A stretch of DNA of 64,000 nt from Bdellovibrionales bacterium CG10_big_fil_rev_8_21_14_0_10_45_34. Lineage in GTDB: Bacteria > Bdellovibrionota > Bdellovibrionia > Bdellovibrionales > 1-14-0-10-45-34. This document shows positions 8,648-36,751 of this stretch, in pieces. Position 1 is the stretch's first letter. Each line of letters begins with the position of its first letter. The notes below the pieces were generated by a model, which was given only the letters and a program-made list of their open reading frames with translations, was not told the origin of the DNA and ran no database searches. The position numbers were made by a program, and so were the translations under genes. The stretch covers positions 76,518 through 140,517 of the forward strand of contig PEZS01000006.1 of assembly GCA_002778785.1 (NCBI GenBank), written 5' to 3'.

Positions 8648-9562
8648 ATGGCGCAATCAAATACTTTGAATGTCGTGAGGGCTATTAGCAAGAAGCAACG
8701 AACGACGGCTTTTGTGTTTGCACTTTCTCTATTTTGGGGACTGATCGCAAATGCGTATTCTTGTAAAGAAACATCTGCACAGAGCCTACCTTTTGAATAT
8801 TGTTACGAATCGCTAGGCGAGAATGCTCATCAAAGCCACGTCATTTATTATTTGCATGGGATGGGCTCAGACGCTCGAGCTGCATTTACTGGCTCAGCAA
8901 AGCCTCTGCGTGATGAACTTTTGCAAAGAAAAGATCAGGCGATGCTCGTGGGAGTCAGCTTGGGGCCGCGGTGGTTTCTCATTGAAAAGCACCCCACGCC
9001 CACCGGAAGAGTAAATACTTTGCAGATTTTCGCTGAAATCTTATTGCCCAACATAGAGCGCGAGATGGGTCTTGCTAGCGACGTCAAGCGGAGTATTGTC
9101 TCAGAATCCATGGGCGGCTTCAATGCTATTCAATTACTTACTTATTATCCAAAGCTTTGGCAGAGGGTGAGTCTTAATTGTCCGGCTATTTTTAATCTCA
9201 CACCATTTTCGACTCAACAAGAGGTTAATGCCTACATTGATCGTCACAAACCCTATTCAAACGCCGAAAAAATTTGGGAATATTATCATCTGGCGAGATA
9301 TCTATTTGAAAGCTTACCCGAGTGGCAGAGGCACGATCCCTTGCTCCTGGCATCGCGATTAAGCCCGCTTTCAGCCAAGCTACTCGTATCTGTTGGTGAT
9401 CAAGATGACTTGGGTGTGAACGAGGGAACGCTTCAGTTTTACTTCTTGGCTCAATCAACGGGCACTCGTGCAATGTTGCAATTATTGAGTGGCGGGCACT
9501 GTGTCTTTGATTGGCAGAGCATTGCTGAGTTTGTTGGTGCCGAAAGTAGAGCACGCCCTTAG
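8648..9562 (+). CDS. Secreted alpha/beta-hydrolase, esterase-like
   Basis: The 304-residue protein has an N-terminal hydrophobic signal segment (about 19-36), so it is likely exported. It belongs to the alpha/beta-hydrolase fold, nearest to the esterase D/feruloyl-esterase style family. The oxyanion loop HGMGSD is at about 70-75, the nucleophile elbow S-E-S-M-G-G places Ser154 as nucleophile, an acidic site is in DQDD at 251-254, and the catalytic His is in GGHCVFDW near 284. The first Gly of GxSxG is Ser here, which is tolerated in this fold. The gene stands alone, divergent from the ftsEX operon, with GGGGGT upstream of the ATG. The substrate is unknown. Confidence 0.8.
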   Translation: MAQSNTLNVVRAISKKQRTTAFVFALSLFWGLIANAYSCKETSAQSLPFEYCYESLGENAHQSHVIYYLHGMGSDARAAFTGSAKPLRDELLQRKDQAMLVGVSLGPRWFLIEKHPTPTGRVNTLQIFAEILLPNIEREMGLASDVKRSIVSESMGGFNAIQLLTYYPKLWQRVSLNCPAIFNLTPFSTQQEVNAYIDRHKPYSNAEKIWEYYHLARYLFESLPEWQRHDPLLLASRLSPLSAKLLVSVGDQDDLGVNEGTLQFYFLAQSTGTRAMLQLLSGGHCVFDWQSIAEFVGAESRARP

Positions 9563-9739
9563 GGTTTCAGCTGAGACCGAGCAACTTGCGATAATTTTTG
9601 TTTAAGTGAGACGCAAAAGATTTGGCTCAATTTGAGAACGAGCCTATTTACGGCAATAAGTGCAGCGAACAGTGTCGCACTCTGAGATTTCGAACTTGAT
9701 CGAATCAACTGGCGCCGCGAAATTTCCGATTCGTCATTG

Positions 9740-11536
9740 ATGGGCCGTATTTTCACAACAGGAATTCTTGGGTTCCTACTTAGCACTTTTTTGCTTTCGG
9801 GTTGCTCCAAGGGTGGATCGACGACTAGCTCGGAGGTTGCCCCCGTCGTATTGAAAGAAGTGGATCCGTGCACGGCTACGACCACCTACTCGAGCGCTGT
9901 TACAGTTACGGGATCGGCTAAATACACACGAAGGGAATTTGAATCGTCCTATCTGGGAGCGACGGGAACTGCTAAAGCAATTCGCTTTGCTGAAATCAGA
10001 GTTACAGATGCAGTTGGGTCAGTCGTTCAGTGCTCACAAACTGACAGTTCGGGTGACTTCTCTTTTCAATTGCCGTTAAATAATCAGACCTACTTAGTAT
10101 CTGTTAATTCCCGTGGGCTCAATAGTTCCCTTAAAGCCAGTGTCCTTAATAACCCTACCGACAATCAGTTCTATTCACTTTCTACTTCGGTCGTGGCTGA
10201 TCAAGACAGAAGCGTCGGTACCTTAACCGCCGAAGGCGATTCGGCTGACGTGCTTGGTGGTGCGTTTAACATTCTGGACGTGATTGTAAGAGCGAATGAA
10301 TTCTTGAGAGATAAAGTAGGTTCTTGCTCCGGCTATACGGGATGCGCGGCCTTTACGGTTGCCGACAAGGTTTCTGTATTCTGGGGCAAGGGTGTCAACC
10401 CAGCCACTTACGTGGGGGGATCAGCGTCTACTGGTTTAAGCTTTTACCTTCCTGGTAGATCTCAACTCTACATTTTGGGCGGAATTGGCGGAGACGTGGA
10501 TAACACGGATACAGATCACTTTGATGACAGCGTGATAGCCCACGAGTACGGTCACTTCATAGAAGATCTCTATGCGGAAACAGACTCTCCGGGCGGAGCC
10601 CATGATGCCAACAGCATTATTGATCCGCGACTGGCGTGGGGAGAAGGTTGGGCTAATTTCTTTTCTCTGGCTGTAAATGGTAGTTCGACTTATCGAGATT
10701 CTTTTGGAAACGTTTCTGGAACTTCACGTGGCTATTACTTTAATCACAATTTAGAAAATACAACGAGAGATTACAATTCGGGCGGCACAAGTGGCGAAGG
10801 AAACTTTCGTGAGTTTGCTGTAACAAGGGCGCTGTGGGACCTCATGGATGCACCCGCTGATGCGAGCTTTCCGGGTATGTCTAATGAAGCAAGCGGGCCG
10901 CCAACTGGGAATAATTTGTATACACCGTCTTTAGAAGACGGTGTTCAAGGCAACTTTGCTGAACTGTGGGCTATCTTCTCGAACTCCTTTAAATCTTCGA
11001 CCTACGCCTTTCGAGACTACGGTCTTTTTATGTATTTGTATTCCAATTTTAATAGTCCGTCTTTGACAGGCATGGCGGGCATATACACTGCTGAAAAACA
11101 AAAGAACACACGCGCAGACTACGCAGCTGGCTACACTCTTTCTGGCACAGACTGCGGCAGCGTCTCTATCTCGAGCACTGTACCTTCGGGGTCATCGGGG
11201 TACGGCTCTGCAGCAGCTGCAGCTAATCAATTTTATCGGAACGATTTTTACCTTGTCGATCACCCCGGCGGAGTTATGTCGCTCGCCTTAAGCTGGACAG
11301 GAGGACAAGATCTTGATCTCTATGTTTACGGCGAAGGGTACACCTACGGAAGCAGCTCTTCTGTTGTTGCAAAAAGTGACCGAGTTAACGGAACAGTAAC
11401 GCCACCGGTGGACTATTCAGAATCGGTATCGCAAGCGATTGCCGCTGGTAAGTACTTGGTTAACGTAAATCTTTGGTCAGGATCAGGGACTGCCAGTTAT
11501 AAACTTCAACTAGGGGGGCAATATGTCTGCCCGTAA
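9740..11536 (+). CDS. M36 (fungalysin)-like metalloprotease lipoprotein
   Basis: This is a 598-residue exported lipoprotein. The ATG at 9740 directly follows an in-frame TTG; MGRIFTTGILGFLLSTFLLSGC gives lipobox LSGC. After a beta-rich carboxypeptidase-regulatory-like segment (about 45-150) comes a gluzincin core. It consists of HEYGH with His268 and His272 as zinc ligands and Glu269 as base, then WGEGWANF with Glu302 in the place of the third ligand. HEYGH followed by GEGW is the layout of family M36, so M36-like is the best call. The C-terminus (about 510-598, DLDLYVYGEG) resembles a pre-peptidase C-terminal domain, common in secreted proteases. It overlaps the next gene by 14 bp. A role in degrading extracellular or prey proteins is inference. 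Confidence 0.82.
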   Translation: MGRIFTTGILGFLLSTFLLSGCSKGGSTTSSEVAPVVLKEVDPCTATTTYSSAVTVTGSAKYTRREFESSYLGATGTAKAIRFAEIRVTDAVGSVVQCSQTDSSGDFSFQLPLNNQTYLVSVNSRGLNSSLKASVLNNPTDNQFYSLSTSVVADQDRSVGTLTAEGDSADVLGGAFNILDVIVRANEFLRDKVGSCSGYTGCAAFTVADKVSVFWGKGVNPATYVGGSASTGLSFYLPGRSQLYILGGIGGDVDNTDTDHFDDSVIAHEYGHFIEDLYAETDSPGGAHDANSIIDPRLAWGEGWANFFSLAVNGSSTYRDSFGNVSGTSRGYYFNHNLENTTRDYNSGGTSGEGNFREFAVTRALWDLMDAPADASFPGMSNEASGPPTGNNLYTPSLEDGVQGNFAELWAIFSNSFKSSTYAFRDYGLFMYLYSNFNSPSLTGMAGIYTAEKQKNTRADYAAGYTLSGTDCGSVSISSTVPSGSSGYGSAAAAANQFYRNDFYLVDHPGGVMSLALSWTGGQDLDLYVYGEGYTYGSSSSVVAKSDRVNGTVTPPVDYSESVSQAIAAGKYLVNVNLWSGSGTASYKLQLGGQYVCP

Positions 11537-12218: not shown

Positions 12219-12316
12219 ACTTTCGCATTTCAAATTGGCCTTCTGTCTAAAAGTAACAAAGTAAGTTGATAAGACTCGAAGATTCTCCCGATAGGTTCGA
12301 TGACGAGGACTTCACA

Positions 12317-12946
12317 GTGAGAACACCTTTGTTTAAACTCAGCCGAGCGCTTACCTGTCTTTTAATCTTGCCGAATTGTTCGAGCCCCCAGTTTGTGGTC
12401 GACTCTGAACCAAACGGTGCCCAAGTAGTCGTAACTTCAGATTCTCACTCCCCCCAAATGATAGGTAGCACACCAATCACAACGTCCCCAAGTGCCTTTG
12501 CAAGTGGCAGCTCTTCAACAATTGTAGAGATAAAAAAGGCGGGTTTTGTTTCAAGACTAGTCCATTTACCCGAAACCACTTTTTCTCGATCTACACATAT
12601 CAAGGTCAAGCTGACTGAAGATCGGGTGCCAGCAAGCTGCGAGAATCAGAATTTGGCGGTGCGAGACGTCTCTAGAGGAATTGCCAGGGCTCAATCTTTG
12701 ATTGCATCAAAGAAAATGGACGAAGCAATGAACCTGCTTAAAAACCTAATTGCACGTTTTCCAGAGAATCCCGTGCTCTACGATCTCATCGGAAACATCT
12801 ACTATATGCAGCGTGAACTCCAGTTAGCGTTAAGTGCTTACAAAAAATCGAATCAGATAGAGCCCGGAAACTCTGAAACAGAAAATATGATTGAGAAAAT
12901 AAAGCTAATTAGTGGAGATCGATCCCCGGCTGAAGCAGGAACTTAA
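12317..12946 (+). CDS. PEGA/TPR lipoprotein, first gene of the motor-like operon
   Basis: I chose the GTG at 12317 because it gives a good lipoprotein signal peptide (RTPLFKLSRALTCLLILPNC, lipobox LPNC) and has GAGGAC about 8 bases upstream. The TTG at 12266 would add 17 hydrophilic residues before the signal. The product is about 209 residues. A PEGA-type beta domain follows the lipid Cys (VDSEPNGAQVVV ... IGSTPITTSPSAF), and the C-terminal half holds tetratricopeptide repeats (MDEAMNLLKNLIARFPENP, YDLIGNIYYMQRELQLALSAYKKS). PEGA domains are common on surface lipoproteins, and TPRs bind partners. It ends 22 bp before the MotA-like gene and so probably belongs to that operon as an envelope scaffold. 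Confidence 0.78.
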   Translation: MRTPLFKLSRALTCLLILPNCSSPQFVVDSEPNGAQVVVTSDSHSPQMIGSTPITTSPSAFASGSSSTIVEIKKAGFVSRLVHLPETTFSRSTHIKVKLTEDRVPASCENQNLAVRDVSRGIARAQSLIASKKMDEAMNLLKNLIARFPENPVLYDLIGNIYYMQRELQLALSAYKKSNQIEPGNSETENMIEKIKLISGDRSPAEAGT

Positions 12947-12968
12947 TTCGGCAACAGGAGAAAGATAA

Positions 12969-13766
12969 GTGGCGTTTTTATTAGGAATTCTTTTAGCATT
13001 GACTGCTTTCGCATCGGCACTAATACATCTTGGGCAATCTGCTTCTTCCTATTTCGATTTTGTAGCCTGCACTGTAGTTCTCGGCGGTACGGTGGCAGTT
13101 TCGATAATGGTTTTGCCTTGGCAACAGCGCGCGGAAATGATCGAGAAATTCAAGTTCGCATTAGGAAGCTCCAAGTTCAATATTAATCAGACCTATATGG
13201 ACGTGTTGGAAGCGGTTCGGGCCTTACAAGCGGGCAAAGTTCTATCATTTGAAAAGGGGAGCGACCTTGCACAGCGAGTTCTCTCAACCGCTTTTGAACT
13301 AAGGTCGTTGGGGTTTTCAAACGAAGAGATAAAAAACATCCTTTCTCAAATGATTGTGCAAAAGGCACAGAGAGGAAAAAGAATTGCAGATTCCATAAAG
13401 GGACTGAGCAAGTATCCGCCGGCATTTGGGCTTGTAGGAACAGTTCTAGGATTAGTTAATTTGATGAGGTCACTGTCCGATGGTCTAACTCCAGCCGAAA
13501 CGGGAGTGGAGATGGCAGTGGCACTTATTGCCACATTTTACGGACTGCTTGTTGCAAACTTAGTAGTGAATCCCTTAGGCGAGATCATATCAAAAAACAA
13601 CGGTATGGAGATTCGCTGCGCTGAAATGGCTTTGCGTGGTGCTCTGCTCGGAATGACGGAAACTTCTTTCTTGAAAGCCCGTGAACTTCTTCGAGTTTAC
13701 TTATCAGACGCCGCAGCTGAAAACTACGACAGATCAGGGGCTCAGGTTGTAGAAGGAGCTGCATGA
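12969..13766 (+). CDS. MotA-like stator protein, non-flagellar operon
   Basis: The 265-residue product starts at GTG with AACAGGAGAAA upstream. Four membrane segments fit MotA topology: two near the N-terminus (about 3-20 and 28-47), then a large cytoplasmic loop, then PPAFGLVGTVLGLVNLM (about 143-160) and MAVALIATFYGLLVANLVV (about 177-196) with the conserved Pro and Gly residues of the ion channel. MotA forms a ring around a MotB dimer and uses ion flow to push FliG. The gene overlaps the MotB-like gene by 4 bp. It is clearly diverged from the flbD-linked motA of this window (35984-36751) and lies beside a FliG-like gene, not flagellar genes. That suggests a separate rotary or force-transducing machine. 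Confidence 0.85.
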   Translation: MAFLLGILLALTAFASALIHLGQSASSYFDFVACTVVLGGTVAVSIMVLPWQQRAEMIEKFKFALGSSKFNINQTYMDVLEAVRALQAGKVLSFEKGSDLAQRVLSTAFELRSLGFSNEEIKNILSQMIVQKAQRGKRIADSIKGLSKYPPAFGLVGTVLGLVNLMRSLSDGLTPAETGVEMAVALIATFYGLLVANLVVNPLGEIISKNNGMEIRCAEMALRGALLGMTETSFLKARELLRVYLSDAAAENYDRSGAQVVEGAA

Positions 13767-14485
13767 GTACGAATATGGATCTTATTGAATTCGAAGAGTC
13801 TTCTGCCGAGGAGCCTGACTCTGAAGGCACTTGGGCGATCAGTTACGGTGACATGATCACTTTGCTTTTAGGGTTTTTCGTGTTGTTTTTTTCCTTTGAC
13901 CCTAGCCAAACAAAACAAGCAGGTGTCACTCAAGCAATTATCCAGGCAATCAGTACAAATGTAGAAAAGAATTCGAGCGAAAGGTCTCCAGCGGCGCTAT
14001 CAAAGTTTTCTAGTTCCCGCGAAGGAATCGACGAAGTTACTATTGAAAAACTGGGTGCCAAGGCATATCAAGTGGGCGCTAAAGTGCTTGTAGAGTTTCC
14101 AGGCGTATCTTTTTTCGACTCAGGTGAAACAAGTTTAACACTTCAAGGTAGAGCAGCCCTTGAAAAATTTGTTGTGAAATACCTGCCGTATGCGGGAGGC
14201 CATAATTTATCAATCATGGCCTATACAGATCCCAAGCCAGTCATCGCGAGCGCAAAGAGGAAATTTCAAGATAACTTGGAACTGTCGGCACTGCGCTCGG
14301 TCAGTGCGATGAGGCGACTCCAACATTCAGGTCTACCCTTAGATACAATGAGAATTTCAGGCTACGGCGTCAGCGAGTTTAATGAGAGTGAAAAGGGGCA
14401 GCTTCCGGAACATCTTAAGAAGTCGGATCTCCACGCACTTCATCGAAAAGTATTACTTGTGATTTCGCCGAGAGGTACAATATGA
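13763..14485 (+). CDS. MotB-like stator protein with OmpA-type domain
   Basis: The 240-residue protein has a short acidic cytoplasmic tail, a single membrane helix (ISYGDMITLLLGFFVLFFSF) with the essential ion-binding Asp at residue 30, a periplasmic linker, and a C-terminal OmpA/MotB peptidoglycan-binding domain. That domain includes FFDSGETSLTLQGRAALEKF and NLELSALRSVSAMRRL, matching the usual NxxLSxxRA helix. It should form the stator core with the MotA-like neighbour and anchor it to the cell wall. ATGA overlaps join it to both neighbours. The acidic, Glu-rich N-terminus before the plug helix differs from the basic tail typical of flagellar MotB. Confidence 0.87.
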   Translation: MSTNMDLIEFEESSAEEPDSEGTWAISYGDMITLLLGFFVLFFSFDPSQTKQAGVTQAIIQAISTNVEKNSSERSPAALSKFSSSREGIDEVTIEKLGAKAYQVGAKVLVEFPGVSFFDSGETSLTLQGRAALEKFVVKYLPYAGGHNLSIMAYTDPKPVIASAKRKFQDNLELSALRSVSAMRRLQHSGLPLDTMRISGYGVSEFNESEKGQLPEHLKKSDLHALHRKVLLVISPRGTI

Positions 14486-16149
14486 AATTGATCCATCTAA
14501 TTTTAACTTGTGTGGCTTTTAGTAGCGTCGGATTCGCTCAAGCACAAAAACATCCAAGAGTACTCGAGTTAGAAGAGAAACTGACAAAAGATGCGATGAC
14601 CTATCTTAAGGGCAGGTTTCCGAGCTCCCCTTTTTTGGCAATTGTTCGGGTTGATCCGCTCCATAGGAGCACGTCGGAGACATCAAGAGGTGAAAGACTC
14701 CCGTATCTCGACCTCCAAGAAACTGAAATTACGGATGAGTGGGATGATCCTTCGTTAAGCATGCATGAGTTGCTGCGTAGGACAACGAAGGTTGAAGTTA
14801 AAGTGGAACTTCCAAAGGAGCTTTCTGAAGACAGATCCAATGAAGTTAAGGAAAATTTGATTTCATTACTTAGTCTTACGCCAGCAAGAGATGATATAGT
14901 CATCATCCGCCGCGACTGGGAGACGACGGGGAACTACTGGCTACAGGTTAGCTTTGCGATCGGCGGTTTACTTCTGTTTTTGATTGGTCTTTATTTCATC
15001 CTAAGGGCCTCTACATCAAGGATTGCCGATGCCGTCGTAAATATGAAGCCTAGTGGTAGTGGTGCCGGCTCAAATCTAGCGGGCGCGGCAATGCACAACA
15101 TGGTAGATCATACTTCGGCACGTTCGGGAGTTCAGGATTTGAATTTTTCCGATCCCATTCGAATTCGGGAAATGACTGGAGAGATTGTAGGGGCTCTAAG
15201 CAAAGATTCCCACTTCCCAAATTTTGAAGCCATGGTCGAACTTGACGGCTTTTGTGAAAAAGACCAGCGTGCCTTTGGGGCGCTGATAAAGGAATTCCCT
15301 ATCGAACTCAGAGAAAAACTTTTTTCTCTGAGTTATTCGGAGAAGTGGTTCGAGGCTCTAACAAATCCGGGTGATTTAAATCAGCAGGCACTTTCGTTAC
15401 TTTTAAGGATTCATCGTCTTGAGAAAAGCACGAAAACAAATCCCCAATGGGAAAGACTATTGATTCAGGCGTGGAGACTTGACGAAAGGCGCTCGGAATT
15501 TTTTGCAAAAATGCATGAAACTGAAGCATTTGCAATTCTAAGATCCCTGCCAAATTCCATAGCACTTCCGATTGCAAGAGATGTGTTCCCTGGTAAATGG
15601 GGATTCCTGCTCGATCTGGAGTCAACGGTAGAGAGAATAAAAGAACAACGTATTGTGGAGCTTATCGAAATAGCAATAGCATTGAAGTCGCCGCGCGATT
15701 TTTCTCAGGTCACCAGGTATAGAAAAGATCGAGATCTCTTAAAGTTCTTAGATACAGCCGAAGTTCACGAAGAAAAAGAAGTGTACCGTGCCTTACGTAA
15801 AGACTCTATTGTTCATCAATTGCGCCCCCCTTTCTTTAAGGTACTGGAGGAGCAGACTGCTGAAATAGGGGAATTTGTCGCGAATGTTCCAGTTTCTGAT
15901 TGGGCGATGGCGTTGTTTAACGTTTCTAAAGCAGAACGAAAAAACGTGGAGGCAATCTTTAATGAAAAACAGCGATTGTTTTTTGTCGAGAACCTCAAAT
16001 CCTTCGATGGCGTCCCTCCCAATAAAGATCTCGTCGGTAAGAAGCGGGCTAGCATTGCAAAATTTTTCAAGGATTGGAAAGAGATACTCGATAAAACAAA
16101 GGGCGAAGTCCAAAATGACGACAAGAGCACAGAAACTCTCGCGGCTTAA
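14482..16149 (+). CDS. Membrane-anchored FliG-like protein (possible FliF/FliG fusion)
   Basis: The 555-residue protein has a signal peptide (1-20), a periplasmic domain (about 22-150), one membrane helix (about 151-175) and a long helical cytoplasmic part (about 225-540). The cytoplasmic part reads like FliG ARM repeats. The end aligns by eye with FliG C-terminal domain layout: VPVSDWAMALFNVSKAERKN, then IFNEKQRLFFVENL, then GVPPNKDLVGKKRASIAKFF. These correspond to the FliG VD..LA.ALKG, NMS.RAA..L.EDL and GPV...DVE.AQ..I blocks. The part before the helix, including KVEVKVELP and DDIVIIRRDW, looks like the end of a FliF/YscJ-type ring domain. In flagella FliF holds FliG on the membrane; here one chain may do both. 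ATGA overlap with the MotB-like gene supports a stator-rotor pairing. The homology is distant and needs profile searching. Confidence 0.68.
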   Translation: MKLIHLILTCVAFSSVGFAQAQKHPRVLELEEKLTKDAMTYLKGRFPSSPFLAIVRVDPLHRSTSETSRGERLPYLDLQETEITDEWDDPSLSMHELLRRTTKVEVKVELPKELSEDRSNEVKENLISLLSLTPARDDIVIIRRDWETTGNYWLQVSFAIGGLLLFLIGLYFILRASTSRIADAVVNMKPSGSGAGSNLAGAAMHNMVDHTSARSGVQDLNFSDPIRIREMTGEIVGALSKDSHFPNFEAMVELDGFCEKDQRAFGALIKEFPIELREKLFSLSYSEKWFEALTNPGDLNQQALSLLLRIHRLEKSTKTNPQWERLLIQAWRLDERRSEFFAKMHETEAFAILRSLPNSIALPIARDVFPGKWGFLLDLESTVERIKEQRIVELIEIAIALKSPRDFSQVTRYRKDRDLLKFLDTAEVHEEKEVYRALRKDSIVHQLRPPFFKVLEEQTAEIGEFVANVPVSDWAMALFNVSKAERKNVEAIFNEKQRLFFVENLKSFDGVPPNKDLVGKKRASIAKFFKDWKEILDKTKGEVQNDDKSTETLAA

Positions 16150-16705
16150 AAGTCCATTTCTTCAGGTTATGGGTATAGTCCTGGGATTGTCTCTGGTCAC
16201 TATGACCCACGCGAAGGGAAAGCTTCACCTTGGCGCAGGAGCCTTCAGCTTGAATGCTTCCACGCCCTCAAGGTCAAAGACGATCAGTGGCCCGGGCTCC
16301 TACAGTGTCTCTTATCTTCATCCCTTATTTAGGAAACTGATGTTAGAGGCAGGATATTCAGTAATTATGTCTGAAGGAATTTCTGGAGATATGGGTTTCG
16401 GACTTGATATAGGATTAACATTCTATCCACTGACAGAAAGTCAGGAATTCGGAATAGAAGAAGACAATGTGAAAGTGAAAATCGATGAAATCTGGAGGCC
16501 ATTCCTTTCTGGATACTTTCATCAAAGACAGTTTCAGTCTGTTTCAAGCAGCTATGCCGGATTCGGTTTTGGCGCGGGAATAGAAAGACTGTTTAATGAA
16601 AAATATGGCTTATTGGTGAAAGCCCGTTACCAAATTTTGGCGGGCCCGCAGTCTTCGAGCGCGAGCAATATAGATTTCTTAATTGGTTTGATGGTGAAGC
16701 TATGA
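16115..16705 (+). CDS. Small outer-membrane beta-barrel protein
   Basis: The ATG at 16115, overlapping the FliG-like gene by 35 bp, gives a 196-residue product with a signal peptide (SPFLQVMGIVLGLSLVTMTHA). Longer in-frame starts lie deep inside the upstream gene and lack a signal. The mature part alternates polar and hydrophobic residues in about eight strands (KLHLGAGAFSL, GSYSVSYLHPL, MLEAGYSVIM, SSYAGFGFGAGIERLF, LVKARYQIL). It ends in NIDFLIGLMVKL, consistent with an OmpA- or OmpW-size barrel. The next gene begins with an ATGA overlap. Its likely role is as the outer-membrane partner of the stator/rotor-like proteins; this is inferred from the operon. Confidence 0.7.
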   Translation: MTTRAQKLSRLKSPFLQVMGIVLGLSLVTMTHAKGKLHLGAGAFSLNASTPSRSKTISGPGSYSVSYLHPLFRKLMLEAGYSVIMSEGISGDMGFGLDIGLTFYPLTESQEFGIEEDNVKVKIDEIWRPFLSGYFHQRQFQSVSSSYAGFGFGAGIERLFNEKYGLLVKARYQILAGPQSSSASNIDFLIGLMVKL

Positions 16706-19700
16706 ATGCAAAAGTCCTTCATTCCATATCTCGATCGTTTGTAGTTCCACTTTTGGTGGGCCTGGTTTTGGCCTCTTGCAAATCGGGTGGCGGCGGTGGG
16801 GAGTCGGCCTTTAGCTTTCTAGAGCCTGAAGTTCCGCTTCAGAATCAAGATGGCACAATTAAAATTGAAAGTGCCTCCCCCGTGGAGAGTCCTGTAGTTA
16901 TTGTTGGATCTGCTTCCACAAACTTCGGAATAGTTGTCAACTCAGAGGCGGGTAATTCCGTGAGTTTTAAGTGGTCGCTAGCAGGTACTCAGGTCGCGAG
17001 TACGAGCGTTCCCTTTTACTCATTACAGGGCGATCTCGCCTACCCTGGAGTTCAAACTCTCTCAGTAACTGCGACTAACTCGGTAAGCACTGCCACGCAT
17101 GAGTTTATAATTCGAAAGAACTCCCCACCAAGGTTATCCTTCTTACAGCCTTCTCAAAGTGGCGGTTCAGTCGCCTGTGGCTCGGGTTCTTTGAATATGT
17201 CGGCCACCGGGACAGATGCTGACTCAGATAGTCTGACTTTCACATGGAAGCTGAATGGGGCAATTTCACCAAGCACACTTCCGGCAACTACGCTTGCAAA
17301 TTCGTCGTCAGCGACATTTTCGCCAACCTGTGCACTTAGCGGAAGCCATACAATATCTCTGGAGGTAAGCGATGGATACGAAGCTACAACCTACTCTTGG
17401 GTAGTCAGTGTTGCGGATCCTACGGTCGCAAACATAAGTTCGTACTCACCCACGGCAGCGACAATCATTATCCCTAGCACCGGTAATCAAAGTTTTAGCG
17501 TCGCCGCGACCGGAAAGGCTCCTTTGTCGTATAGCTGGAAGTTGAACGGCACATCTATACCGTCAGCAACGACATCCATTCTAAATTTGGCAGCCTCGAG
17601 TCTGACGAACGGACCTCATACACTTGTTGTTACAGTCTCTGATAGCGATAGTTCAGATAGTCACACATTCAGCATTGTAAAGAACTCTCCTCCAGTCATT
17701 TCAAACGCGAATCCAGCTTTATCGACGCTCAACACCAACTTCCAGACGCTCAAAACTTTTCGTGTCGATGTGACCGATGCCAATTCTGATGCACTCACCT
17801 ACACTTGGACTCTGGACGGAATCAATCACGGAAGTCTTTCAGCCAGCACTCCGGCGGGAGGAGCACAGGTCATATTTTCGCCGACCATAGGGCTCGTGGG
17901 GAGCCATACTATTCAGTTAGTGGCGAGTGATGGTGTTGAGACTGCGTCCCAAACTTGGACTGTCAATGTTAACTTCTTTAGCAATGCGTGTAACGATCTT
18001 GCTGCTGGGCAAATCTGCACTCTTGTTGGCAAAGCGGGATTGGGCGATGGCGGCAACCCACAAAGCAGCTCGGATCGTGTAGTTTTCCAGGCAACTCAGG
18101 TCGCTCGTGATGGTTCAACAGGATACTTTTTTTCAGACGCTGTGAATGATTTGATTTGGTATTACAACATTTCTGGAGCAGCAGTCACTAGGCTTGGAAT
18201 TTCTATTCCTCCAGCGGCAGCTAAGATTGTTGTGGGCACTGGTGCAGACGGCGCAGGTAGCGACGGGCAGACGAACACGAACTTCAAAATAGCTCAACCG
18301 CAGGCAATTGTGTGGGACGCTGCAAACTCTCGCCTGTTTCTGGCAGACTATCTCAACAATCGTGTCGTCATGTTTGACTCAGCTGGGGTTGGTCGAAGAG
18401 TTTTCGGCAACGGAAGCAATGGTAACAATCAGGCAAATCACACTGATGGGGCAGCTGCCACGACTCATGCCTGCTACCGACCAACAGGTTTGGCGTTAGA
18501 TTCTGTAAGAGAACGCCTGTATGTTGCGTGCAATGAGCATCATTACATTAAGTATGTTGATATTAGTGCCGCCGATCTAGAAGACTGGACGGCAACAGTT
18601 TTACTCGGAAGAAAAAACGGATCGGGCACAATCTCAGGGGGCAGTGAGGACGGTGTTATTGGTACTTCAGGTTCAGCAGCAAGAGCAAATAGACCGTGGG
18701 ATATCACTCTTGATCATCAGGGCAATCTTTACTTTTCGGAGTATGCTGGATGCCGTGTGCGGGTTATCAATCTTAGCGGGGCAGGGAAAACCTATTTTGG
18801 CGGAGATGTCTCTGTAAGTGACGGCAGAGTAGGGAGTCTCTTTGGTGTTTATAACAGTTGCGATACAACTCTCGGAGCAAGAACGTCTCTGAAACTAAAT
18901 AGACCTCGAGGAGTCGCTCTTCATCTGGACGGCTCTACACTCAAGGGATTTTTTGTTGCGAGTACGGATCACCACCGCGTTCTATACATCAACCAGTCTG
19001 GGGCAACTGCGCAGTACGGCTCAAAGCAAGTACTCGATAAGCAGGGTCAAAATATATTTGGAAATGGTACGGCAGATTACAACGGCCATGGGCTTTCTGG
19101 TTCTTTAACTTATGTCTCCTCACCAATGGGTATTGATTATGACTCGGCAGGTTCGCGCTTGATAGTGGCAGATACGGGCAACTTTCGCCTAAGGGGGCTA
19201 GATATCAGTGTTCCTAACGGAATAGTATCTCAAATTGCAAAAGGAGTTTCTAAAGCTGGATTTAGCGGTGATGCGGATCAAGCGGCAACCGCGGTTGAAA
19301 TGAGTCAACCTTCAATGATGAGTGTTGATCGCGCCAATAATCTTATGTACTTCGGTGATGCCGGTAACGGGCGTATCAAGACAGTTGACTTATCAACGGG
19401 TCTCGTCAAAACCGCGCTGGGTGGCGGTATTGGTAACGCCACAGTAGAGAACGAAACTCCGCTTGCTGTCTTGAGTCGGGCTATTCGGGGAATTGCTCTT
19501 GTAGGAAGCGATCTCTTATACGCAGATCGCAACAACAACAACTGCATGGTGAGATTTTGGAATCGATCAGGCGCTGATAAGGTCGAGTTCAATTCACTTG
19601 TAGAAAACAACCGAGTCAGGACAGTTCTGGGCTCCTATGGTGGCTGCACCGGATGGGTGGCCGGAAATGAAGGAGCACAAGCGAACTCCGTTACTTTGGA

Positions 19701-20355
19701 TGATTTTGAAGGTATGGCCGTACGCTCTGGAGAATTGATTGCAGTGCTTTCGGTAAACCACTGCCTGGTAAAAGTTGCACCTGGAGGAACCCTAAGTTCT
19801 TTTGTAGGTAAATGCGGTACGGCCGCAAATGTGGACGGAGACATCTCATCGGGTCTTGTGCGTTTGAGATCACCAGTTGGATTGAACGAAGATCCGAGGA
19901 TTGCGGGAAACTACTTTATAGTAGACGCCTCGGATCAAGGTACCAGCTACATAAAGTACCTAAATCTTTCCAGCTCCAATGTGACGATAGCTAGTAGTAG
20001 CGTGCCGCCCAATCAGATTATGACTGTGATAACAACGGCGGGATACTCGACAGGAGTGGCGGCTTTTGACAACCAGATCTGTTACACGAGCGGACAGCCT
20101 GGGAGCGGCGCCAACGGTGCTCACCACGTTATTTGCATTAATAGGGACGACTCTCTTGGCAATACAACAATGCGTGCTGGACCAGCGATGGGGCCCATCC
20201 GCGGAGGTAACCAGTTATCAACAAACCACGAAGGGATATCTGCTTCAAGTGCCCTTATGTTTGCTCCGTATGGGTTAGACTTTGACAACAGCGGCAATCT
20301 TTACATCACCGAACAAAGTAACCACGTCATTCGAAAAGTGAAACGCTGGTGGTAA
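16702..20355 (+). CDS. Large lipoprotein with Ig-like and NHL beta-propeller repeats
   Basis: The 1217-residue lipoprotein (lipobox LASC, Cys26) is followed by a Gly-rich spacer. Four Ig/PKD-like repeats, about 90-100 residues apart, each carry the core strand with a conserved Trp: SFKWSLAG near 88, TFTWKLNG near 178, SYSWKLNG near 275 and TYTWTLDG near 366. From about 437 to the end come NHL-type beta-propeller repeats (for example GIDYDSAGSRLIVADTGNFRLRGLD and GLDFDNSGNLYITEQSNHVIRKV), a fold used for protein or glycan binding. It is probably surface-exposed. It overlaps the barrel gene by 4 bp and ends the motor-like operon. An adhesive or substrate-contact role at the outer end of that machine is plausible but inferred. 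Confidence 0.82.
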   Translation: MNAKVLHSISRSFVVPLLVGLVLASCKSGGGGGESAFSFLEPEVPLQNQDGTIKIESASPVESPVVIVGSASTNFGIVVNSEAGNSVSFKWSLAGTQVASTSVPFYSLQGDLAYPGVQTLSVTATNSVSTATHEFIIRKNSPPRLSFLQPSQSGGSVACGSGSLNMSATGTDADSDSLTFTWKLNGAISPSTLPATTLANSSSATFSPTCALSGSHTISLEVSDGYEATTYSWVVSVADPTVANISSYSPTAATIIIPSTGNQSFSVAATGKAPLSYSWKLNGTSIPSATTSILNLAASSLTNGPHTLVVTVSDSDSSDSHTFSIVKNSPPVISNANPALSTLNTNFQTLKTFRVDVTDANSDALTYTWTLDGINHGSLSASTPAGGAQVIFSPTIGLVGSHTIQLVASDGVETASQTWTVNVNFFSNACNDLAAGQICTLVGKAGLGDGGNPQSSSDRVVFQATQVARDGSTGYFFSDAVNDLIWYYNISGAAVTRLGISIPPAAAKIVVGTGADGAGSDGQTNTNFKIAQPQAIVWDAANSRLFLADYLNNRVVMFDSAGVGRRVFGNGSNGNNQANHTDGAAATTHACYRPTGLALDSVRERLYVACNEHHYIKYVDISAADLEDWTATVLLGRKNGSGTISGGSEDGVIGTSGSAARANRPWDITLDHQGNLYFSEYAGCRVRVINLSGAGKTYFGGDVSVSDGRVGSLFGVYNSCDTTLGARTSLKLNRPRGVALHLDGSTLKGFFVASTDHHRVLYINQSGATAQYGSKQVLDKQGQNIFGNGTADYNGHGLSGSLTYVSSPMGIDYDSAGSRLIVADTGNFRLRGLDISVPNGIVSQIAKGVSKAGFSGDADQAATAVEMSQPSMMSVDRANNLMYFGDAGNGRIKTVDLSTGLVKTALGGGIGNATVENETPLAVLSRAIRGIALVGSDLLYADRNNNNCMVRFWNRSGADKVEFNSLVENNRVRTVLGSYGGCTGWVAGNEGAQANSVTLDDFEGMAVRSGELIAVLSVNHCLVKVAPGGTLSSFVGKCGTAANVDGDISSGLVRLRSPVGLNEDPRIAGNYFIVDASDQGTSYIKYLNLSSSNVTIASSSVPPNQIMTVITTAGYSTGVAAFDNQICYTSGQPGSGANGAHHVICINRDDSLGNTTMRAGPAMGPIRGGNQLSTNHEGISASSALMFAPYGLDFDNSGNLYITEQSNHVIRKVKRWW

Positions 20356-35248: not shown

Positions 35249-35983
35249 CTAACGGACAATGATGACTTCCGTCCGGTTGTTGCGTTCTTTTGAGGATTCG
35301 GGGTTTCGAACGAGGGGTTTGTTATCTGCATAAGCGGCCATAGATATTTTCTCTATAGGAAAACCGCTAATTTCAACAACAAAACGAAGAAGGCTTGTGG
35401 CCCGTGCAGAAGTGAGATTCCAAAGATTTCCGACTGCTTTAGAAAAACGCGTGTTATTGGCGGCATGACCTTCAACAATAATTTGTTCGGCTCCTTGCAC
35501 GAGAATTGCCAAAATGGTTTTTAACGACTCAAAAACTTCGCGGCGAAGTTTTTCATTTTCGCTCAAAAAAAGCATCTCGTTGTTAAAGGCAATGTGCAAT
35601 CCTTGGTCGTCGCGGTATATGCCAACAATTATTTCGTCTAACACTTCCTTTTTGACTGCGCTTGCAAGCTGAGTGCGGATTTGATCTTCGAGCTCGGCTC
35701 CAATACGCCCCCTTGGGAATAAATTTATCGGTGGAGGTATAGGGCTTCCTAATGGGTCAAATCGATTGTGATCGCCTTGTCCTGAAGTGCCAGGAAGCTG
35801 CACAAGAGCAGCGAATGCTGCTCGAATGGATTCTTCAAACTGTTTTTGCTTCTCCTCATCGTGGGTGGATGTGGCATAAAGTACCGTGAAAAAAGCAAAA
35901 AGAAGAGTGATGAAGTCTGCATAAGAGACAAGCCATCTCTCTAAGTTGGGCTCTTCATCGTGCGACCGACGTTTGCGATTCAT
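35249..35983 (-). CDS. motB: Flagellar stator protein MotB
   Basis: The 244-residue protein has a basic N-terminus (NRKRRSHDEEP), the plug/membrane helix LVSYADFITLLFAFFTVLYATS with the ion-binding Asp23, and an OmpA-like peptidoglycan-binding domain (about 130-244; FLSENEKLRREVFESLKTI, IIVEGHAANN, NLTSARATSLLRFVVE). It anchors the stator to the wall. The start follows directly after the motA stop with no gap. The order flbD-motA-motB is a standard flagellar arrangement, which separates it from the second MotB-like gene at 13763. Confidence 0.95.
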   Translation of the reverse strand: MNRKRRSHDEEPNLERWLVSYADFITLLFAFFTVLYATSTHDEEKQKQFEESIRAAFAALVQLPGTSGQGDHNRFDPLGSPIPPPINLFPRGRIGAELEDQIRTQLASAVKKEVLDEIIVGIYRDDQGLHIAFNNEMLFLSENEKLRREVFESLKTILAILVQGAEQIIVEGHAANNTRFSKAVGNLWNLTSARATSLLRFVVEISGFPIEKISMAAYADNKPLVRNPESSKERNNRTEVIIVR

Positions 35984-36751
35984 TTATGTTCGGCCTTTTG
36001 AGCGACTTTGACTCTTATAACTCTCTAGCTTTTCTCTTAAGAGATGGGGGTTAATACCTGCAAGAATGCCAAGTGCGCCTTCGAGGATCATTTCTTTTGC
36101 AATGGACTCTTCTTGAACTTTTCGCTTTAGCTTGTTGCCAAGTGGGATAAAGAAAAGATTCGCAGAGCCAATACCGTATACCGTGGCCACAAAGGCGATC
36201 GCGATACCAGAGCCAAGCTTAGCTGTATCCGTAAGATTCTCCATAACATGTATCAAGCCGAGCACCGCACCGATGATACCTATTGTAGGAGCAAACCCTC
36301 CCGCCTCGGAGAAAACTTTTGCACCGGCAATTCGGCGCTCTTCGCTCATTGCGATTTCCGTTTCAAAAACGCTTCGAATGTGCGCCGGGTCTACGCCGTC
36401 AATAACGAACCGAAAAATATTCTGCATGTAAGAATTAGAGAACTTCGGTATGCGAGACTCCAAAGCCAAGATGGATTGCTTACGGGCAATATGTGCTGAC
36501 TCCGATATTTCCTCAATGAGACTATCGATATCGAATTCTTTGGAATCCTTGAAAGCTCTTGGCAGTAAATTACCAGCCATTCTAAGATCAGCAGGTGGAG
36601 CACTGACAAGGACGGCTCCAAGCGTACCGCCAAACACGATAATGGCAGCCGTGAGTTGTATCAGCGAGTTCACATGACCGCCTTCAAGAATTTGCCCAAA
36701 CAGAATGGCTCCAACCCCTAAAACAACTCCAAAAATACTTGCTCTATCCAC
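35984..36751 (-). CDS. motA: Flagellar stator protein MotA
   Basis: The 255-residue protein has four membrane segments: FGVVLGVGAILFGQIL, LIQLTAAIIVFGGTLGAVLV, then after the cytoplasmic loop FAPTIGIIGAVLGLIHVM and GIAIAFVATVYGIGSANLFFIPL, with the conserved channel Pro. The cytoplasmic loop carries charged residues (SEERRIAGAKVFSEAGG) that contact FliG. It begins 1 bp after flbD and abuts motB. PomA (sodium type) versus MotA (proton type) cannot be decided by eye. Confidence 0.95.
   Translation of the reverse strand: MDRASIFGVVLGVGAILFGQILEGGHVNSLIQLTAAIIVFGGTLGAVLVSAPPADLRMAGNLLPRAFKDSKEFDIDSLIEEISESAHIARKQSILALESRIPKFSNSYMQNIFRFVIDGVDPAHIRSVFETEIAMSEERRIAGAKVFSEAGGFAPTIGIIGAVLGLIHVMENLTDTAKLGSGIAIAFVATVYGIGSANLFFIPLGNKLKRKVQEESIAKEMILEGALGILAGINPHLLREKLESYKSQSRSKGRT

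Follow-up and report, generated by a model that had tools for sequence, protein, structure and literature searches.

A candidate minimal rotary motor without a flagellum: flagellar-type stators and a putative one-piece FliF-FliG rotor in Bdellovibrionota

What would a bacterium drive with an operon that pairs MotA/MotB-like stators with a membrane-anchored FliG-like protein, when the remaining genes encode lipoproteins and an outer-membrane barrel? As far as I know, no FliG-type rotor has been described outside flagella. The operon in question lies in the 3.06 Mb genome of a Bdellovibrionales bacterium, within a window (the whole stretch of 64,000 nucleotides analyzed, G000:C6:76518-140517) where it occupies positions 12317-20355 as six tightly packed genes in one direction (Table 1). 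A sequence-only reading had proposed this set of genes, and all six are present with gene types borne out by domain matches; its claim of overlaps of at least 4 bp at every junction holds for four of the five (4 bp, 4 bp, about 35 bp and 4 bp), the first being a gap of 22 bp instead. The separate flagellar stator pair that it placed in the same window was also recovered, as motA-motB at 35249-36751. The leading TPR lipoprotein, predicted to be a periplasmic or outer-membrane component, is read from a GTG at 12317, with a TTG at 12266 as a possible alternative start. Upstream of the operon, a flagellar sigma-28 promoter was not enriched over shuffles (mean best score 10.6 vs 10.3), and a gene at 9737-11536 encodes a 599-aa lipoprotein that combines a carboxypeptidase-regulatory-like domain with a metallopeptidase-like HEYGH motif. 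In this article, I will argue that the operon fairly probably specifies a minimal rotary motor that is not flagellar and is coupled to the outer envelope, consisting of flagellar-type MotA/MotB and a one-piece FliF-FliG rotor.

Table 1. Features of the operon and of its putative rotor protein, in window coordinates.
Feature	Position	Strand	Evidence
PEGA/TPR lipoprotein, 209 aa	12317..12946	+	TPR_2 E 1e-6, weak PEGA match; orthologues lead the operon in all intact loci
MotA-like stator subunit, flagellar type, 265 aa, C-terminus ...GAA	12969..13766	+	MotA_ExbB E 1e-18
C-terminal Ala-Ala of MotA	13758-13763	+	AA in 18/28 module MotAs
MotB-like stator subunit: channel Asp, plug region, OmpA-type peptidoglycan-binding domain	13763..14485	+	MotB_plug E 2e-10, OmpA E 5e-5, PDB MotB matches
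Putative FliF-FliG fusion rotor protein, 555 aa	14482..16149	+	Profile, fold and profile-profile searches
FliF RBM3-like periplasmic domain, residues 22-147	14545..14922	+	VIA-align vs FliF 8z5v_A Z 12.4, 2.4 Å, 94 residues aligned; further FliF rows
Single transmembrane helix	14938..15015	+	Hydrophobic stretch within predicted helix 146-186
FliG C-terminal (torque) domain, residues 450-537	15829..16092	+	VIA-align vs 8ucs_H Z 11.8, 1.6 Å, 86/88 residues
C-terminal Ala-Ala of fusion	16141..16146	+	AA in 22/27 fusions
Small outer-membrane beta-barrel	~16115..16705	+	Weak OMP_b-brl match; orthologue follows the fusion in all intact loci
Lipoprotein, 1217 aa, PKD/Ig repeats and NHL beta-propeller, lipobox LASC	16702..20355	+	NHL E 1e-10, PKD, Big_9

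The central piece is the fourth gene, whose 555-aa product reads, from N to C terminus, as a signal peptide, a FliF RBM3 domain that lacks the collar insertion, a single transmembrane helix and FliG, and which sequence comparison and modeling identify as a natural FliF-FliG fusion. The sequence-only reading had recognized the membrane-anchored FliG-like part and suggested profile and fold checks against FliG and FliF; these found similarity to both and confirmed the FliG part, while the identity of the periplasmic part as FliF RBM3 had been missed, and it is this identity that would make one polypeptide both the anchor of a rotor ring and the receiver of torque. In the AlphaFold model of the window protein (pLDDT 80), Foldseek rows 1-28 are all FliG or FliF, with E-values of only 0.01-0.1, and PrgK and EscJ come lower in the list; the torque domain superimposes on the FliG of the MotAB-FliG complex 8UCS, and the FliG middle domain is covered in the VIA-align match as well. 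The RBM3 domain of flagellar FliF bears a long collar insertion, which in the fusion is replaced by a loop at about residues 60-90 that is short, poorly modeled and carries a conserved LPYxD...EWD. At the level of sequence, the profile of the window family has FliG C-terminal domains as its top four matches in the PDB (E 0.004-0.03), and 10 of 16 close family members match Pfam FliG_C (best 1.3e-5), the window copy itself giving no match. Direct profile comparisons by hhalign are weak for both flagellar FliG (E 0.03) and FliF (E 0.0076), so the sequence link of the window family to both rests on intermediates and structure. By my own mapping, all 17 close fusions aligned have a basic residue where E. 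coli FliG has R281, and the positions of D288/D289 commonly hold an acidic one; the FliG EHPQ motif is not apparent in the window family, and degenerate forms such as EHPK occur in divergent fusions.

These intermediates come from divergent module types. A second locus (L067, in genome G011) has the same genes and a FliG_C match of 1.6e-13, its large lipoprotein carrying He_PIG Ig domains and FG-GAP propeller repeats, not NHL. With this locus as query, fusions of about 580-615 aa were found in the genus Bdellovibrio, including single-contig genomes such as G030, near genes for MotA, MotB, a TPR lipoprotein and barrels, and several of them match FliG_C, FliG_M and FliG_N above the curated cut-offs. 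The divergent family aligns by hhalign with the window family over 513 columns (E 6.4e-15) and with flagellar FliG over 290 columns (E 5.3e-17), and its comparison with FliF RBM3 gives E 5.9e-4. A model of a divergent Bdellovibrio-type fusion in its own right (pLDDT 75) aligns with FliG along 268-563 (287 residues) and with FliF RBM3 over 97 residues (1.6 Å, 23% identity), the first 32 fold rows all being FliG or FliF. On sequences and models, the divergent versions settle the homology to FliF and FliG.

Now turning to the stators, the window MotA matches only flagellar MotA/PomA in the PDB (best 2e-23), along its length and across the cytoplasmic part of the flagellar protein. The channel residues of the pair, on which the sequence-only reading had made its proposal depend, are kept in alignments: Pro151 of TM3 and Thr189 of TM4 of MotA are invariant, the channel Asp is present in the window MotB (SYGDMITLLLGFFVLFFSF), and each of the 41 module MotBs whose sequence covers the N-terminus has the motif S-Y/F-G/A/S-D-M/L/I; the OmpA domain completes this set of flagellar stator features. 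A tree of 50 A subunits sets the module and flagellar MotAs together apart from the ExbB/TolQ types (100/99), and in it the flagellar MotAs of the local genomes form a clade with two unassigned pairs (99/96) that leaves all module MotAs outside. This supports, by sequence, stators of flagellar type in a lineage separate from that of the local flagellar stators. Orphan MotA/MotB pairs of flagellar type also occur (L161 8519-10364, L162 7599-9631 and L165 6279-7755); no fusion was detected near these three, and in the MotB-like protein of L162 a coiled-coil is present and OmpA is replaced by another periplasmic domain.

A search with the single sequence recovered the 555-aa protein from 17 of 59 relatives, and a 16-sequence profile, with weak matches removed and with Bdellovibrionota as the only phylum searched, placed the fusion in about 70 of 368 genomes; named relatives are MAGs assigned to Bdellovibrionales, Bacteriovoracaceae, Halobacteriovoraceae and Oligoflexia. 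The gene order across Bdellovibrionota, another point raised from the sequence alone, is conserved: TPR, MotA, MotB, fusion and barrel follow one another on one strand in all intact loci examined, which rules out chance synteny, and absent members coincide with contig ends. The one exception is a decayed locus (L037 9036-12322, in G024:C107), where the fusion is broken by a stop, the barrel and NHL genes are in pieces and MotA/MotB were not detected, suggesting a recent loss of the module in that lineage. In most loci the Ig/NHL lipoprotein adjoins the module, its strand and side varying, and among loci with long flanks on both sides it is absent only in L076, L080 and L098; in the five genomes checked, its only strong homologue sits at the module, and it is therefore a dedicated partner. 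Weak profile matches near residues 143-242 in L068 and G030 were rejected as methyl-accepting proteins beside ordinary flagellar motAB. The window genome also has, at L064 9648-10112 (G000:C9, minus strand), a stand-alone 154-aa FliG_C-like protein (40 bits to FliG_C, ending in KVA) that is encoded away from the true fliG; its neighbors are aspS/hisS-like genes and, on the opposite strand, a probable CpaF/TadA-like ATPase gene.

The presence of the module in the genus Bdellovibrio, which the sequence-only reading, right in substance as it was, did not recognize, connects it to genes that already have names. The fusion is accompanied by its own MotA in the divergent module types too, and G030 has three flagellar-type MotA genes, near 0.13, 2.92 and 3.17 Mb, in an order that fits motAB1, motAB2 and motAB3, the middle one belonging to the divergent fusion module of L120, whose fusion gene spans 9421-11154. 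Going by gene position, the stators of this module are very probably motA2-bd3021/motB2-bd3020 of B. bacteriovorus, where all three mot pairs are treated as flagellar stators (PMC11323537); no description of a fusion protein beside motAB2 was found in the literature searched. Beside the divergent module (L120 7673-18999, G030) is a gene for a SpoIIE-type phosphatase that includes a membrane sensor part; the other side of the module has a von Willebrand-type domain protein and a partner, found around L118 as well; these flanking genes are possible regulators or output parts. Genome G017, besides a window-type module, has at L160 7695-13082 (G017:C7) genes for a TPR/PEGA lipoprotein, a 659-aa fusion-like protein, a barrel, MotA, MotB and a small helical-repeat protein with a single transmembrane helix, a probable third module type, although a FliG profile match was not obtained for the 659-aa protein.

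Could all of this simply belong to the flagellum? The main rival to a separate motor, which I consider unlikely though worth taking seriously, is a flagellar accessory: the fusion would make up an additional or alternative rotor ring, with the module MotAB serving as extra stators of the same flagellar motor or of its sheath. FlhA is present in all 30 carriers of the window-type fusion tested, and in the carriers sampled in the order set, whereas the fusion is missing from all of the roughly 21 FlhA-negative genomes of the order (within family f4, 12/29 FlhA-positive against 0/18 FlhA-negative genomes, P 0.001 with kinship ignored), and a link to the flagellum is therefore possible. In B. bacteriovorus, motAB2 is also reported to contribute to flagellar motility (Morehouse 2011, as cited in PMC11323537) and is altered in expression in a fliL mutant (PMC11323537). 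However, the FlhA-negative genomes are mostly small and reduced, a confounder by which genome reduction may explain the absence of the fusion, and FliL-Bd1076 binds MotB3, not MotB2 (PMC11323537). The module also lies outside the flagellar gene clusters, the FlhA of the window genome being on another contig; its MotAs fall outside the flagellar MotA clade, and its partners are outer-membrane and surface proteins. Compared to a full-length FliF (TM1, RBM1, RBM2, RBM3 with collar, TM2), the fusion has only RBM3 and one transmembrane helix; with TM1, RBM1-2, the collar and the C-terminal region of FliF all missing, it would not be expected to hold a rod or export gate, and a complete FliF is encoded separately in every genome examined. 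Among the operon genes of the window there are none for an export gate, rod, hook or filament. The module is likely non-flagellar. Judged by the features tested it is no flagellum, though very probably it works like a flagellar motor.

A different reading, to which I would give little credence, keeps the module out of the flagellum and also denies it rotation: in the manner of Tol or Ton, MotAB would energize a periplasmic or outer-membrane process by conformational pulling, with the FliG part an adaptor or leftover and no rotating ring. The TPR lipoprotein, the barrel and the OmpA-type MotB do recall envelope systems in the style of Tol-Pal, and ring formation by the fusion is a prediction only; yet the MotA is of flagellar and not of ExbB/TolQ type, the torque domain is conserved and has charged positions, RBM domains build rings in known families and the fusion keeps a MotA of its own across divergent module types. 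More basic still is the objection that the folds themselves are false positives arising from all-helical repeats and a common alpha/beta fold, given the modest Foldseek values, the weak direct profile scores and the fact that a Z near 12 can arise by chance for helical bundles. This objection is nearly excluded when FliG_C, FliG_M and FliG_N are matched above curated cut-offs in syntenic homologues, and when two unrelated rotor domains appear in the right order around a transmembrane helix in two separate models.

A separate, minimal motor is the reading to set beside known machines. It resembles the flagellar motor in having flagellar-type MotA/MotB with channel and peptidoglycan-binding parts, and in the order in which a FliF RBM3 and a FliG torque domain are placed across the membrane, but it joins FliF and FliG in one polypeptide without FliF TM1, RBM1-2 and collar, and its locus has lipoproteins and an outer-membrane barrel where the flagellum has export gate, rod, hook and filament genes. 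A full FliF-FliG fusion made in the laboratory forms rings in a non-motile host (PMC6079021), indicating that a fused rotor can assemble, although such fusions are engineered from complete flagellar proteins, whereas the module fusion is natural, reduced and in an operon of its own. SctJ/PrgK of the type III injectisome ring likewise has a signal peptide, an RBM periplasmic domain and one C-terminal transmembrane helix; however, it lacks a FliG part and operates together with an export apparatus, and FliF RBM3 matches the fusion better. ExbBD, TolQR, AglRQS, GldLM and ZorAB are non-flagellar relatives or analogues of MotAB that do envelope work. None of them, as far as I am aware, has a FliG/FliF-type rotor. 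The A subunits of ExbB/TolQ type, and with them the Tol-Pal, TonB and Agl motors, belong to another clade than the module MotA (PMC12505986; tree here), and no TolA/TonB partner domain was found at the operon. Unlike ZorA, the 265-aa MotA-like protein has no long tail, and partners of ZorC/D/E type gave no Pfam or NCBIfam match there.

An additional feature points to how such a motor might be controlled. Ala-Ala tails (Table 1) fall exactly on the two subunits with expected cytosolic C-termini, the fusion and MotA, compared to 1 of 231 neighboring genes (the sequences are related and P-values overstate this difference), and they are found in 0/29 MotB, 0/27 TPR, 0/25 barrel and 0/20 NHL proteins of the module. 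Not all divergent fusions keep the tail. Ala-Ala is the classical ClpXP degron, and the tails may thus be ClpXP-type degrons through which the motor is removed in a regulated way. In Caulobacter, flagellar FliF is known to be a substrate of ClpAP (PMC8119881). A flagellar MotA3-type protein in G030 (L163 5480-6346) ends in ...KKAA, and the tail may therefore occur on some true flagellar stators too.

Sequence and models support the components, their order across the membrane, their conservation and the separate stator lineage, and from these I infer a ring, its rotation, an output path and a function. The fusion subunits would form a ring in the inner membrane, and MotA5MotB2 units, held to peptidoglycan through the OmpA domain, would turn with the flow of ions and push the FliG_C torque domains of that ring, so that the RBM3 ring would rotate in the periplasm. 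By way of the TPR lipoprotein and barrel, torque would then reach the large surface lipoprotein or an adhesive surface structure, and at some stage ClpXP might remove the motor through the cytosolic tails of rotor and MotA. The most likely use, suggested with low confidence, would be surface movement of the gliding type, or the shifting of surface lipoproteins during contact with cells or surfaces. Whether this amounts to a new class of rotary nanomachine, with a flagellar-type stator and rotor but no flagellum, turning or dragging outer-membrane and surface lipoproteins and possibly serving as the gliding motor of Bdellovibrionota, is a proposal that I hold at slightly better than even.

No description of a non-flagellar FliF-FliG fusion or FliG-like rotor was found in the literature searched, a search whose coverage excluded bioRxiv and most subscription papers. 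A 2025 survey divides the MotAB relatives into flagellar stators (the FIT clade) and generic transporters without flagellar features (PMC12505986), and a module with flagellar-type stators and a reduced rotor of its own breaks this division. It would also give structural and single-motor studies a minimal stator and rotor to work on, and would be a natural test of what a rotary motor requires as well as evidence on how flagellar parts are re-used. In B. bacteriovorus, the flagellar-stator role of motAB2 becomes a matter for direct re-test, and if the divergent version is indeed a separate motor, motAB2 would not primarily be a flagellar stator. Furthermore, the motor behind Bdellovibrio gliding is still unknown (PMC13104615), and with a divergent copy in this genetically tractable genus the module bears directly on that problem. 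If the motor reading is true, many relatives of the predatory Bdellovibrio would possess a new kind of bacterial motor, and a candidate engine for movements that are still unexplained.
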